Positions 21,918 through 29,184 of a stretch of 34,615 nt of DNA are shown here, piece by piece. The stretch comes from Desulfuromonadaceae bacterium (lineage in GTDB: Bacteria; Desulfobacterota; Desulfuromonadia; Desulfuromonadales; Geopsychrobacteraceae), in NCBI GenBank assembly GCA_016744555.1, contig JADGED010000002.1, positions 1-34,615 on the forward strand. The letters are read 5' to 3'. Under the pieces are notes generated by a model. The model worked only from the letters and a program-made list of their open reading frames with translations, was not told the origin of the DNA and ran no database searches. Position 1 is the first letter of the stretch. The number at the start of each line of letters is the position of its first letter. The position numbers and the translations under genes were made by a program.

Positions 21918-22382
21918 TCAACATTCCACTTCAAGAGAAAATTCCTGCAGCAAAAGGGCAAAAACTTCGGCCTCTTTAGCTTCCATCAGGTCCGCTTCAG
22001 CAGCAGTACCACGTTCGTGATCGTAACCAACTAGATGCAAAATACCATGCAGCAACAAAAACCAAATTTCATGGAGAAATGGGATATCAGCTTCTACAGC
22101 ATCGCTTGCTGCCCTTTCTGCCGAGATAACAACGTCACCTAACAGTAACGGCACTAAACCAGCACCTTCGCCCTCTTGCATAGCAAAGGATATGACATTT
22201 GTTGGCCGATCACGCTGCAAATATTCACAATTTATCTGCTGAATTCCAGCATTGTCAAGGAACACAATTGACAATTCAGCATCAGGATATCCCAAGACGC
22301 TTAAGATCTTCTGAGCTATCCTTCGCAGTTGCAGCTTCGGGATCTTGTGCTGCTTCTGGCGGTTTTCTATCTGAATTTGCAC
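21918..22382 (-). CDS. ybeY: Endoribonuclease YbeY (rRNA maturation)
   Basis: H3XH5XH motif HGILHLVGYDHE; PTNVISFAM; GTG start at 22382, so the N-terminus overlaps the upstream gene's 3' end. Confidence 0.95.
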   Translation of the reverse strand: MQIQIENRQKQHKIPKLQLRRIAQKILSVLGYPDAELSIVFLDNAGIQQINCEYLQRDRPTNVISFAMQEGEGAGLVPLLLGDVVISAERAASDAVEADIPFLHEIWFLLLHGILHLVGYDHERGTAAEADLMEAKEAEVFALLLQEFSLEVEC

Positions 22383-24693
22383 TTTTAGTCCTCACCTTTT
22401 CTTTAACTACACCGGGCTCACTGTTACCATTTTTTTCCCGCACAATATGTACAGGTTCAGGATAATCGACTCGGTGGTGGAAAGAGCCAGATAAAATTCG
22501 GTTAAAACTTTTAGCAATTAAATTTAAATCTTTCAGCGTCAAATCACATTCATTCAACTGGCCATCGATAAAAATATTATTTATAAGTTTTTGCACCATC
22601 CCCTGAATCCTCGCCGGAGTTGGGTCGGTCAAAGTGCGACTGGCTGCTTCAACTGCATCGGCTAACATAATAAGAGCTGCTTCACGGGTTTGTGGTTTTG
22701 GACCATGGTAGCGATAATCGCGCTCATCGACCTGCTGTACTCCTGGGTCAGATTGGTTTTTTGCCCGCTCATAAAAAAACTTAATCAAACCAGTACCATG
22801 ATGTTGCTGAATAATCTCAATTATCTCTGAGCCAAGGCGGTGTTCGCGCGCCAAATCAATTCCGTCTTTTACGTGAGATGTCAAAATCAAAGCACTCATA
22901 GAGGGGGTCAACTTATCGTGCTTATTACGTTGCCCGCCTGAGTTTTCAATAAAATAGAGGGGTTTTTTAATTTTGCCAATATCATGATAATAAGCCGCAA
23001 CCCGAGTTAATAATGGATTTGCATTTACCGCCTCGGCAGCTGCTTCGGCCAAATTACCAACTAAAATTGAATGGTGATAAGTCCCCGGAGCTTCTATCAT
23101 TAGCTCGCGCAGAATCGGAGCATTCATATTAGCCAATTCTAGCAATTTAATATCGGTAGTATACTTAAATAACAGTTCAACTAGCGGAATGGTGCCATTC
23201 ACTATGACAGCACTACTGATTCCGCCCAGCATACCAAAACCAAGCTTCCACAGAAGCTGCAACTCAAAGTTACGTCCGCTCAAAAGATGGATGCCAATGA
23301 TCATCGCTACATTGATCAAGCCAATCCATAGGCCAGCACGGTAAAGAGTCGTACGGCGCTGACAATGACGGACCCCATGCGCACCGACTAGACTTGAGGT
23401 CAAAACATAGAAAGCCATAAGCAGGCTATTACCAAACAAAACACCGGCTAAAATAGCGCAACAAACAGAGAACAAAAAGGCTGTTTCAGAATTAAGGACA
23501 ATGCGCACCAGCATCGCCCCAAGGGCAAAAGGAATGGCATAAAGGTAAGCGGATGATTCAATATAAGCGAAATTCGTACCAACCCCAGCCGCAATAAAAA
23601 TGGATATTTTTATCAACACAAACAGAGAAACGGCAACTCCAGCCAAAAACAACAAATCTCTCAAATCAGGGCAAAACTTACTGATATTTCGTTTAGCAAA
23701 ATAAAAGCCAACATAAATCAACAATAGCGAACAAATGATCAAGCCAGCTGCGGTTTGAATGCTGCGATTATCGCGGCCAGAATCTCTAATTTCCTGCAGT
23801 TTGACAATTTGCTCAGCGGTAACCCTCGCCCCTTCACGGACTACCATTTCGCCTTTTTTAACTTGAAATAATACTGGCGCTACCTGCTCTCTGGCCAATG
23901 CTTGTCGCTGATCAGTTTCCAGTTGATCAAAAACCAAGCTCGGACTTAGTTGCTGTGTTACCAGCTCCAGTAGCAATTGCTGTTGCGCAGTTGTCACCTC
24001 AGGTATCTGTAATAATTTCTCATTAGCCAGGCTCAGAGCATCGTTAAGACCTATGGTTCCAGTAAATAACCGTTGGTCAAGGTCCCGTTCGTCCTGCGTA
24101 TCAATAACTACTATGCCGCTATCACGATCAACTTTAAACTTTTGCAAATTAGCCACAATTGGCAAAGCAAACACTGGGTGCAACAGTTTATCGGCGAGAA
24201 TAGTGACATTTTGATTAGCAAAAAAACTGAGAGTTTCCTGAAAATCAGCGGCGATCAACGAGATACCCAATTCATCTTCAAGCTGAGATAAAAATTCGTC
24301 GTAATCAATACTTTCAACACCGCTTTGCCTGACGGTAAAAAGGTGAAACGTTTCACCGACTTGCTCCAGTGAGCGCGCACCTGCAGTTGCATCAAAACGA
24401 TAGATAATTGGCGAATTGTCTGCTGCCTCAGCTCGCTTTGCTTCAGTTAAAGGGGCATCTTCGATCAGCAAATCTCGAGGAGATTTAATATCACGAGTCG
24501 CAATATCACCGGGGATATAATAGTTTGGAATCAATCCCCCTTTAGGGACAATAATCAAGGCCAATAACACCACAACAACTGCCAATAACCAAAGCTCAAA
24601 ACGGTTCTGTCTTTGGTTGCGCAACCCCTGCAGACCGCCAGCAAACAAAGTGGCACGGTTTAATTGTGATTGTTTTTTTTCTTCTTTAGTCAT
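22282..24693 (-). CDS. pgpH: 7TM receptor-HD domain phosphodiesterase, PgpH family
   Basis: N-terminal TM and extracytoplasmic domain, 7TM block, HD domain HHSILVGNLAEAAAEAVNANPLLTRVAAYYHDIGKIKKPLYFIENSGG. Confidence 0.92.
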   Translation of the reverse strand: MTKEEKKQSQLNRATLFAGGLQGLRNQRQNRFELWLLAVVVVLLALIIVPKGGLIPNYYIPGDIATRDIKSPRDLLIEDAPLTEAKRAEAADNSPIIYRFDATAGARSLEQVGETFHLFTVRQSGVESIDYDEFLSQLEDELGISLIAADFQETLSFFANQNVTILADKLLHPVFALPIVANLQKFKVDRDSGIVVIDTQDERDLDQRLFTGTIGLNDALSLANEKLLQIPEVTTAQQQLLLELVTQQLSPSLVFDQLETDQRQALAREQVAPVLFQVKKGEMVVREGARVTAEQIVKLQEIRDSGRDNRSIQTAAGLIICSLLLIYVGFYFAKRNISKFCPDLRDLLFLAGVAVSLFVLIKISIFIAAGVGTNFAYIESSAYLYAIPFALGAMLVRIVLNSETAFLFSVCCAILAGVLFGNSLLMAFYVLTSSLVGAHGVRHCQRRTTLYRAGLWIGLINVAMIIGIHLLSGRNFELQLLWKLGFGMLGGISSAVIVNGTIPLVELLFKYTTDIKLLELANMNAPILRELMIEAPGTYHHSILVGNLAEAAAEAVNANPLLTRVAAYYHDIGKIKKPLYFIENSGGQRNKHDKLTPSMSALILTSHVKDGIDLAREHRLGSEIIEIIQQHHGTGLIKFFYERAKNQSDPGVQQVDERDYRYHGPKPQTREAALIMLADAVEAASRTLTDPTPARIQGMVQKLINNIFIDGQLNECDLTLKDLNLIAKSFNRILSGSFHHRVDYPEPVHIVREKNGNSEPGVVKEKVRTKSANSDRKPPEAAQDPEAATAKDSSEDLKRLGIS

Positions 24694-25686: not shown

Positions 25687-25864
25687 AGGCAGATATTTGT
25701 TGATATGTTATATATTTTCACGTCGCAGAAGTTACCACCAACGCCAAACAAATGCAACAAATTGACCACACGTAGGAACAGCAGTTATCATCACCTTTTA
25801 CCTAGAGTATCTGCTATAGTTATCAAACATCTACGATTAATCTTAATGACTATTTGAGGGAATT

Positions 25865-28033
25865 GTGAATCATCACGCTACCGGAAATCAGGACAAACCT
25901 CTACTAACAACCTTTTTGCAGCAGCTAAACGTGTCCAGACGTCAGCTGTCACTGTACCCCGACGACCATCCACAAATCGCTGCCAGCATTAACAGAACCC
26001 TCGACACCATCAATGAACTATTTCAAGTCAGCCCCACCATTACCCTAGGCATAGCACCAGACGCTATTTTTTATGAAGAATTATGGCTCGATAAAAACGA
26101 TAGGGTTAACCAAGAGTTTGCTGCCTACTTTTCATCTCTTGGGATAGCATCAATCAGCTTTGAAGCTGGTCTCCAAGGGACAGAATTAGTCCGTTTCAAT
26201 CAGCTTCTACGCTCAGACCGCAACACCATTGAATCTTTTGGGGGATTTGACAAACTTCTCGAACAGCAACAAATAAACCACATTTCGGTGGTACCCATAG
26301 ACTACGATGCATTCCAAGCAAGCCACAGTAGCTTCGAAGAGACCGTCTCAAACGGGGAACAATTATGGGAGAATTTCCTCAATGGGCTCCATCAAGGGAT
26401 TCTCGACTTCGGCGACAGCAACTCAACTTGTGATCTCGATTCGGTGGTTGAAATATTTAATGAGAAGTTGGTTGGTAACGAGGTTGAGCGAGCACAATCG
26501 GCACAATCGATCGTCAACTTTATTGATAACAGCATACAAGCAATCGGTAATCATCAAACAACCACAACTATCGACAATAAGCTTATTTCCCTACTAAACA
26601 ATTTATCTGACGAAGCGCAACAAGAATTCCTACACAATGCATTTCAAGCACTCGAACACCATCGTCATGCCGCTCCCGAGATGCTGCAAAAAATCCCATC
26701 ACACCTGCTACAAAACACTATTGCAGGTAAAAACCGACAAGAGCTTAACCTATCGTCAAGGCTATTTGGCTTAATAACAAATCTGGCAGATACATCTAAC
26801 CCTGAACATAATCATAATATAAAAATAAAAACTGCCCCTCTCGCAGAAGATATGATTCGTGCGCGGCTAGATGTTTTATTTAGAGAAGAACAACACGAAT
26901 GCTTCATGCCGAACAACTATCAGGCAGCACTGCAGAGTCTTCTAAATATAGATGCCATCAGTACCATCCCCGATGATGAAAAAGAAAAATTAAAACAGCA
27001 GATTGAACATCAATCAGTTGAACATAATTGTGCTGCTATTATTTTTGAGTTATTGGAAGATAAAATCGATCCTGACCAAGAAGTTTCAATCCAACAAAAC
27101 TTGCTTGACCTCTCGAGATTCTTTCTCGATATCGGTGACTTTATAAGTTTGGTAAAAATATACAGCAATTGGCAGAAATACCTTTATAGCGGTACTGCTA
27201 CAGTCTCTATTTTTGATGAAAAAGTTTTAGCAAACCACTGCCAACTAACTTTTTTAACCGAAGTGCTGGATGCTACGGACATCTGGGAAGAAGATAAGCA
27301 ACCTGATATTGCAGCGTATATAACTTGCGTTGGGGAGCCCTATAGTGACCTGCTAATCGAACGTCTTGGACTTGCTTCAACTTGGGAAGAAAGAAAGTTT
27401 TGGATGCAAACACTTGAAGGGATCGGCTGTGATGCTAAGCAAATGATAATTAACTCCCTTGGTGATGAACGTTGGTACCTAGTGCGTAACCTACTAAGTA
27501 TTATTGGTAAAAATGTCGATCAGCAGAGCATGAAAAGAATACAAAAACTAACTACACATGAACATCCAAAAGTACGCATTGAAGCCATTAATTGCCTCTT
27601 TTTTTGTAACCCAGCAACAGCTAACCGGTTGCTTCACAACGAACTACAAAGCGACGACCCAGAAGCGCTGTTGGCTGCAGTAGCCATAGCAGACCGAAGT
27701 CAAAGCTTAGAGATTCTCGCTATTCTCCACAAAAATCTAGCTAGTGAACCAGCAGATGCCACCGATCTTGAGATTAAGCGCCAAACAGTCCAAACCTTAA
27801 CCAAGATTAGTCATCGTGACAGCCTACCTATTTTCCGCCGGATCTTATCAAAACAAGGACTATTACCATCAAAACGACGCAAACAATTACAAGTTGATAT
27901 AATTAACCATTTAGCGCTATTTTCTGACCCTGCTGCTGCCAAATTGCTACAAGAGCTAACTACTGGCAAACATAAACGCCTAGCCCTAACAGCACTAGAA
28001 CTTCGAAATAAACAGCTACGAGGGGTACAATGA
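25865..28033 (+). CDS. HEAT-repeat-containing protein with an N-terminal domain resembling that of the downstream HD-GYP-like protein
   Basis: GTG start with TGAGGGA-like SD. C-terminal HEAT-like helical repeats (THEHPKVRIEAINCLFFCNPATANRLL, DPEALLAAVAIADRSQSLEIL). Confidence 0.75.
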   Translation: MNHHATGNQDKPLLTTFLQQLNVSRRQLSLYPDDHPQIAASINRTLDTINELFQVSPTITLGIAPDAIFYEELWLDKNDRVNQEFAAYFSSLGIASISFEAGLQGTELVRFNQLLRSDRNTIESFGGFDKLLEQQQINHISVVPIDYDAFQASHSSFEETVSNGEQLWENFLNGLHQGILDFGDSNSTCDLDSVVEIFNEKLVGNEVERAQSAQSIVNFIDNSIQAIGNHQTTTTIDNKLISLLNNLSDEAQQEFLHNAFQALEHHRHAAPEMLQKIPSHLLQNTIAGKNRQELNLSSRLFGLITNLADTSNPEHNHNIKIKTAPLAEDMIRARLDVLFREEQHECFMPNNYQAALQSLLNIDAISTIPDDEKEKLKQQIEHQSVEHNCAAIIFELLEDKIDPDQEVSIQQNLLDLSRFFLDIGDFISLVKIYSNWQKYLYSGTATVSIFDEKVLANHCQLTFLTEVLDATDIWEEDKQPDIAAYITCVGEPYSDLLIERLGLASTWEERKFWMQTLEGIGCDAKQMIINSLGDERWYLVRNLLSIIGKNVDQQSMKRIQKLTTHEHPKVRIEAINCLFFCNPATANRLLHNELQSDDPEALLAAVAIADRSQSLEILAILHKNLASEPADATDLEIKRQTVQTLTKISHRDSLPIFRRILSKQGLLPSKRRKQLQVDIINHLALFSDPAAAKLLQELTTGKHKRLALTALELRNKQLRGVQ

Positions 28034-29184
28034 TAGTTGACCGCCAAGATCAATTACAAAAGCTAATCAGGCTACTGACTACCGCCGCCGCTAACGCCTC
28101 GCTCTATCACCCTGAACACAGACAGGTTTTGCGTTTAGGTCGTCAAGCACTGAGTGCTCTCCAATTACTATTTAACGTCCATACCGACATCACCATCAAA
28201 GTAATTGACGGGCAACTGATTTTTTCCAACCAACCAGTTGCAGACAACCTAGCCGTTACTCGCTTACTCCAAGCACTAGAACGTAACGGCATAAGTTTTC
28301 TCAAGATCACCCCCGATGTTTATGCCGAGGAACTACTTGGTCTGATAAGTATTTTAAGTAAATCACCAGACAAACAAATCGAATTAAAAGATAGTGAAAA
28401 TATCCATTTTGATCAGGTAGCAATCCGCTTTACCACACCAATAAACCAACAGCTAAGCGGGTTAAATTTAAACGACATTGCTGCCTCCGAAGCTGACCGC
28501 TTCATGGATATTTATCAAACAGTGCGCAGCAGGCAGAAGCTTGAGATAACCGGCATCAATGAAATAGTCAACGGCTTTGTTAATGCGTTTAATTGTCAAA
28601 GCGATGCATTTATGGCAATTGCTCCGCTACGCTCAATGGATGAATATACCTATACTCACTCAACCAACATCTGCATGCTCAACTTGGCTCAAGCTAAAGC
28701 ACTTGGAGTCGAAGGGCAGCTACTTAACGATATTGGTATCGCCGCCATGCTGCACGACGTCGGCAAAATGTTTATTTCTCCTGACATTCTTAGTAAATCA
28801 GCTGAACTAGATGCAGATGAGTGGGAAATTATGCAGCAACACCCACGCCTTGGTGCCGAATACCTTCTTAACACCCCTGGGGTTCCACGCTTAGCCGTTG
28901 TTACTGCCTTTGAGCACCATATGCGTTACGACAACAACGGCTATCCAAAAACTAAAAACAACTGGCAACAACATATATGTTCATACATGACTGCCATTTC
29001 CGATACCTACGACGCTATGCGAACTCATCGTAGCTACGAAGAATCTCTTGATACTAACCAAATCTTTTCCATCATGCTCGAGCTCGCAGGCAACAAACTA
29101 CACCCCCGCTTAACCTATAATTTTTTGCAAATTCTGAGCGAACGGGATATAACCAGCGGGCCTAGCAATTATTCAGCAGTGTAA
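28030..29184 (+). CDS. HD-GYP-like domain phosphodiesterase
   Basis: [76 protein letters not shown] 4-nt overlap with the upstream gene. Confidence 0.9.

Follow-up and report, generated by a model that had tools for sequence, protein, structure and literature searches.

The window, a stretch of 34,615 nucleotides at the start of contig JADGED010000002.1 from a Desulfuromonadaceae bacterium (assembly GCA_016744555.1), carries two overlapping genes whose products begin with copies of one domain, here called the N domain (Table 1). The first gene encodes a HEAT-repeat protein (N-HEAT) and the second a protein with an HD-GYP domain (N-HD-GYP). Both open reading frames and their ATGA overlap had been described in a sequence-only reading of this DNA, and were found where that reading had placed them. 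The overlap of the HEAT and HD genes suggests translational coupling. In Pfam searches, the HEAT protein matched HEAT_2 with 35.6 bits (cut-off 27.7) and the HD protein matched HD_5/HD with 52.5 bits (cut-off 27.2). The HEAT-repeat assignment is borne out by this score together with the helical repeats at residues 454–721 of the AF2 model, and Foldseek matched the solenoid to alphaRep, the PP2A A subunit and importins. The middle region of the HEAT protein (residues ~163–440) returned no family in the Pfam search.

Table 1. Features of the N-HEAT/N-HD-GYP gene pair, with positions in the window.
Feature	Position	Strand	Description and basis
GAGGGA, ribosome-binding-site-like	25856-25861	+	3 nt 5' of the HEAT gene GTG; read directly
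N-HEAT gene	25865-28033	+	ORF, 722 aa, GTG start; HEAT_2; AF2 mean pLDDT 84.2
N domain, HEAT copy	25886-26314	+	Residues ~8-150; motif Y31-P32-x-x-H35-P36; hhalign, AF2
Middle region of HEAT protein, all-helical	26351-27184	+	Residues ~163-440; partly low confidence in AF2
HEAT-repeat alpha-solenoid	27224-28027	+	Residues ~454-721; HEAT_2; AF2 helices, pLDDT mostly 92-97; Foldseek
GAGGGG, ribosome-binding-site-like	28020-28025	+	Within the HEAT gene, 4 nt 5' of the HD gene ATG; read directly
ATGA start/stop overlap of HEAT and HD genes	28030-28033	+	Read directly; same 4-nt overlap in 56/77 homologous pairs
N-HD-GYP gene	28030-29184	+	ORF, 384 aa, ATG start; HD_5 + HD; AF2 mean pLDDT 86.8
N domain, HD copy	28036-28419	+	Residues ~3-130; Y26, H30; hhalign, AF2
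HD-GYP catalytic domain	28612-29154	+	Residues ~195-375; conservation in 67 long-pair and 58 short-pair proteins; PDB matches
HD dyad H242-D243	28753-28758	+	Conservation
HHExxDGxGYP motif, 11 residues, Glu replaced by Met	28915-28947	+	Conservation

The N-terminal similarity of the two proteins, which the sequence-only reading had aligned by eye, is real. A single-sequence BLASTP comparison of the pair was marginal (E 0.008, 26% identity over 50 aa), and a similarity of this size could by itself be a chance or composition effect of helical N-termini. Profiles of HEAT-N and HD-N, built from 27 and 26 homologues, were aligned by hhalign over 113 columns with 98.2% probability and an E-value of 4.9e-14, against a best E-value of 0.011 among 50 column-shuffled profiles, 0.29 for a reversed profile and 0.08–0.16 for the HD-C and HEAT-C profiles. 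Reciprocally, the HEAT-N HMM found the window HD protein (1.7e-10) and the HD-N HMM found the window HEAT protein (1.7e-9). These matches, together with the equal order of structural elements described below, refute the chance explanation, the probability of which is now practically nil. These profile comparisons show that the HEAT and HD-GYP proteins are homologous over their N-terminal ~120 residues, and the profile–profile check that the earlier reading had proposed gave a significant result.

AF2 models of both full-length proteins were made separately, with alignments of 67 and 73 homologues. Compared by element order, both N copies are predicted to run helix-helix-strand-strand-helix-strand-helix-strand, as a shared fold would have it. 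The domain is an alpha/beta module of ~120 residues, in which the first two helices are long and the strand pair forms a beta hairpin; pLDDT is mostly above 90. In the HEAT copy, helices span residues 10–30, 36–53, 80–91, 105–114, 119–124 and 128–134, and strands span 58–64, 67–70, 94–100 and 140–144, including two extra short helices before the last strand. Similarly, the HD copy has helices at 3–25, 31–48, 74–85 and 99–110 and strands at 54–59, 62–65, 90–93 and 125–128. Y31, P32 and H35 of the HEAT copy are invariant in 73 sequences, and Y31 and H35 correspond to the invariant Y26 and H30 of the HD copy. Pfam matched nothing in the N-terminus of either window protein. When 26 members of the N domain were searched against it, no match was better than E 0.025 and no family recurred from one member to another, and NCBIfam gave no N-terminal match. 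Profile searches against PDB sequences returned short, repeat-like top matches without meaning (Octarellin, a cytochrome trimer), and the whole-chain Foldseek matches of both proteins were dominated by their HD-GYP and HEAT parts. The N domain thus appears to be an undescribed one, absent from Pfam, NCBIfam and PDB sequences.

GTDB genomes were scanned with the HEAT alignment, which gave 76 loci of Desulfuromonadales and Nitrospirota with 82 N-HEAT genes, in Desulfuromusa, Malonomonas, Geobacter, Geomonas, Geomobilimonas, Geothermobacter, Syntrophus and several Nitrospirota; the distribution beyond Desulfobacterota is read only from these named Nitrospirota loci. By mechanical ORF calling, an N-HD-GYP gene follows the N-HEAT gene in 77 of the 82 cases, most with the exact overlap given in Table 1, so that the co-occurrence in relatives named as a check in the earlier reading is upheld. 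In the five exceptions the HD gene is split into two ORFs, the pair is disrupted or the contig ends. No single ORF fusing N-HEAT to N-HD was found in the sample, which counts against the physical partnership proposed below.

It might be argued that the two genes are ordinary operon neighbours, held together by general synteny without any functional partnership. Within the family of the window the region is indeed wholly syntenic, with ybeY, a 7TM-HD gene, phoH, the pair and an ABC-F gene; the pair lies between the ABC-F gene and a divergent phoH, behind which stands the 7TM-HD gene. Outside this family, the surroundings vary at the 48 loci, where the most frequent other neighbour is shared in only eight, and the pair persists. 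Paralogous pairs, including a short form of ~530 and ~445 aa, always have the HEAT gene first, and this order is unchanged in short pairs at unrelated loci. General synteny is therefore largely refuted as an explanation and is very improbable.

The 7TM-HD gene (window 22282-24693), two genes away from the pair, divergent and kept in the family, encodes a PgpH-type 7TM-HD (7TMR-HDED) protein and is a candidate c-di-AMP phosphodiesterase. Beside short pairs, a small HEAT-only gene was also observed. It codes for ~190–220 aa and is convergent to the short N-HEAT/N-HD pair (L218:2032-2601, L220:8768-9439, L221:2784-3350, L222:3860-4441, L223:3160-3747 and L224:3968-4552). Its occurrence near short pairs in several families makes it a possible third component.

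The metal ligands common to both groups of HD-GYP proteins are, in PmGH, H189, H221, D222, H250, H276, H277 and D305 (PMC4159591). The corresponding residues of the window protein are H210, H242, D243, H271, H296, H297 and D325; K246, D328 and R334 are also present. All seven ligands, the equivalents of K225 (the catalytic lysine of PmGH) and GYP are kept in 67 of 67 long-pair proteins, the window protein included, and in 58 of 58 short-pair proteins, and the GYP of the window protein is G304-Y305-P306. The protein that the earlier reading had called HD-GYP-like can accordingly be recognized as a genuine HD-GYP protein. The full HHExxDGxGYP consensus is not preserved, as its glutamate is replaced by Met, Leu, Ile or Ala in 67 of 67 long-pair proteins. 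Since this glutamate is not among the listed metal ligands (PMC4159591), the window protein is regarded as a divergent member of the HD-GYP group. The position of PmGH E185, the eighth and variable ligand, is occupied by Tyr206 in 125 of 125 proteins, within a Y206-T207-Y208 cluster in the window protein. A Y/F subgroup of HD-GYP proteins has been described (PMC4159591), and the window HD-GYP is assigned by its residues to this Y/F (Y-T-Y) subfamily, with a predicted two-metal site. Because the seven ligands and GYP are intact in all 125 proteins, the window HD protein is expected to be an active HD-GYP phosphodiesterase of the Y type, although conserved ligands are no proof of activity. Its PDB matches, PmGH, V-cGAP3 and PA4781, are all HD-GYP enzymes, one of them cGAMP-specific; V-cGAP3 ranks second among the PDB sequence matches, a position from which specificity cannot be read. 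A role in anti-phage defence was considered and rejected, as PADLOC found no specific model and its only matches, to the Cas10 and Cas3 models, were weak and of a generic HD kind.

A different role for the HD-GYP protein would be that of a nucleotide receptor or regulatory subunit, with the HEAT protein as its effector and hydrolysis not the point. A receptor-only HD-GYP, DvhD, is known in a sulphate reducer (PMC13090378), its structure 9rbz is among the structural matches of the window HD protein, and the replaced HHExxD glutamate of the long-pair enzymes would fit such a role. However, neither the HD dyad nor the His pair remains in DvhD, whereas both are kept here in 125 of 125 proteins, and a receptor role is considered quite improbable.

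The history of the pair was traced through its paralogues. Several genera in the window's family have two pairs in tandem, in the order HEAT-HD-HEAT-HD, which was found in sister genera at L061, L062, L063, L064, L065, L066 and L067. For both genes, the window pair is the orthologue of copy 1 in seven of the seven tandem loci compared. The nearest-copy relation was concordant between HEAT and HD in 36 of 42 comparisons, and the distance matrices of the HEAT and HD N domains gave a Mantel r of 0.856 (permuted maximum 0.105), a correlation that, like the adjacency, reflects shared descent too. From these comparisons the pairs are seen to duplicate as units. In the Desulfuromusa loci examined there is one pair only, the orthologue of copy 1, which makes a loss of copy 2 at these loci probable.

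An N-domain tree was calculated from 122 domains and 137 columns, with many forks left open. One well-supported group (54 rows, 97/95) unites the HEAT-type domains from both long and short pairs and excludes those of HD type, and a few HEAT-type domains from distant families are placed elsewhere. The HEAT-type and HD-type copies most likely split before the pairs diversified, which would make the pair an ancient two-gene module. A profile search of the host genome with the N domain finds only the pair's two copies. The domain duplication proposed in the sequence-only reading therefore stands as regards shared descent and not as a recent event: the tree rules out a recent duplication within this genome and places HEAT-N and HD-N in ancient lineages that diversified in parallel.

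Among 118 Desulfobacterota genomes sampled, the N-domain profile had matches in 53. Mechanical ORF calling in this sample gave 126 N-domain ORFs, 65 with HEAT repeats, 51 with HD-GYP and 10 with neither. N-HEAT stands directly upstream of 48 of the 51 N-HD genes. Of the 65 N-HEAT proteins, 16 have no adjoining HD partner, among them fusions to GGDEF and PilZ, which indicates that the N domain can work without HD-GYP. In other Desulfobacterota the fusions include GGDEF-AAA-N-N-HEAT (1414 aa), GGDEF-AAA-N-HEAT (~1190 aa) and N-HEAT-cNMP-PilZ proteins of 918, 1458 and 1680 aa. Also, six of the ten ORFs with neither HEAT nor HD-GYP are ~740 aa long and have a degenerate GGDEF-like C-terminus (hhalign E 2e-8 to GGDEF). 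These fusions and the HD-GYP pairing give the N domain as its partners HEAT repeats and the enzymes and receptors of cyclic dinucleotides. The GGDEF, CRP-PilZ and degenerate GGDEF fusions link it to cyclic-dinucleotide signalling, and suggest that it is a docking or regulatory module of such signalling that has yet to be named. The pair, which the earlier reading had tentatively explained as a scaffold and a phosphodiesterase joined by their common domain, is a conserved overlapping unit; the domain itself is not private to it, as these other fusions carry it as well.

Individual fusion loci were recorded as follows. GGDEF-AAA_16-N(-N)-HEAT proteins of 1180–1414 aa (L207:1530-5774, L208:367-4611, L209:1640-5227, L210:1483-5076 and L211:570-4112) combine a predicted cyclase, a STAND/AAA-like ATPase, one or two N copies and HEAT repeats. 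At L212:3920-6676, L213:6014-11056 and L214:2080-6456, the encoded N-HEAT proteins have a cyclic-nucleotide-binding (CRP-like) and a PilZ domain at the C-terminal end. The ~740-aa proteins with a degenerate GGDEF-like part (L253:3404-5629, L256:2683-4902, L261:3829-6057, L268:3441-5645, L275:3623-5878 and L219:3225-5450) have a long helical-looking region between it and the N domain, and apparently form an uncatalogued family. The host genome of the window itself has 24 GGDEF matches, 8 PilZ matches, 2 further HD_5 genes and 3 c-di-GMP-I riboswitches. A PAS-GGDEF-EAL protein encoded at 55-1911 of the window is another c-di-GMP gene of this genome.

With somewhat better than even confidence, the two genes are proposed to encode one cyclic-dinucleotide control unit, in which a HEAT scaffold and an HD-GYP enzyme are joined through their N domains and act on a local pool. 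The N domain would serve as a docking and dimerisation module, and the HEAT protein would assemble with the HD-GYP protein by HEAT-N:HD-N contacts, perhaps also like-with-like. The HEAT solenoid would bind a client, at which the phosphodiesterase would either be placed or have its activity gated, so that c-di-GMP (or 3',3'-cGAMP) would be removed locally. Coupled translation of the genes would keep their products at a constant ratio. Physical association of the two proteins via the shared domain is considered likely.

HD-GYP proteins usually have N-terminal sensory domains, and the N domain could likewise be a ligand sensor, each protein sensing the same small molecule alone while the operon merely co-regulates them without a complex. 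Its occurrence in proteins without an adjoining HD-GYP agrees with this, and an alpha/beta core with an invariant tyrosine and histidine could form a pocket. However, HEAT-N and HD-N diverged long ago and the overlapping pair has been kept with almost no other neighbour, which fits obligate partners better; sensing by separate proteins is therefore held to be rather unlikely. Sensing and docking would be reconciled in an N:N dimer with bound ligand. A broader form of the docking proposal, plausible but held with less than even confidence, is that the N domain is a docking code, so far undescribed, in cyclic-dinucleotide signalling, by which HEAT scaffolds are joined either in trans to HD-GYP enzymes, as in the operon pair, or in cis to GGDEF cyclases or PilZ receptors. 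HEAT-organised local complexes, often several per genome, would then extend from Desulfobacterota into Nitrospirota.

Many bacteria have c-di-GMP enzymes by the dozen, which raises the question of how each of them can act locally. In Geobacter-type metal reducers, cyclic dinucleotides are known to influence extracellular electron transfer and growth on surfaces. A predicted phosphodiesterase with a dedicated, nearly inseparable HEAT partner would offer a handle on the placing or gating of such an enzyme in these organisms. In addition, an uncatalogued domain is common to the partner, the enzyme and, by fusion, to cyclases and receptors, and it would add a family missing from Pfam. Because both genes start with its copies and are almost never apart, the N domain seems to be a piece that was missing from the toolkit of bacterial cyclic-di-GMP signalling.

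In the open-access literature searched, no description of the pair and no link between HEAT repeats and HD-GYP in Geobacter was found. A HEAT-like-repeat gene, KN400_2162, was among the mutated genes of a long-term evolution study, and might belong to this family. The window HD protein has the HD-GYP fold, HD dyad, metal ligands and GYP in common with PmGH (4mcw), PA4781 (4r8z) and V-cGAP3 of V. cholerae (5z7c), and its profile matches PmGH with an E-value of 1.4e-36 and V-cGAP3 with 1.5e-30. Unlike PmGH, it has a tyrosine at the E185 position, as in the Y/F subfamily. It also differs from known HD-GYP phosphodiesterases in an N-terminal domain new to Pfam and PDB sequences, in the replaced glutamate of HHExxDGxGYP and in its nearly inseparable HEAT-protein partner. 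DvhD of Desulfovibrio vulgaris (9rbz) is a receptor-type HD-GYP without metal ligands and has dCache and PAS domains (PMC13090378), whereas the window protein has its ligands intact and no such sensor was found in it. Bd1817 of Bdellovibrio (3tm8), an HD-GYP-type protein with an N-terminal domain, aligned by Foldseek over ~325–330 columns with a TMq of 0.49 and is a lead only; its sequence match to the window HD protein covers only the linker and HD part. Bd1817 has no GYP tyrosine and is inactive (PMC4159591), whereas the GYP of the window protein is intact. Although the enzyme, the domain of life and the proposed docking mode differ, and no ancestry closer than that of generic HEAT repeats is claimed, the Foldseek matches of the HEAT part offer a works-like analogy in the PP2A A subunit (2iae), a HEAT solenoid that scaffolds a hydrolase.
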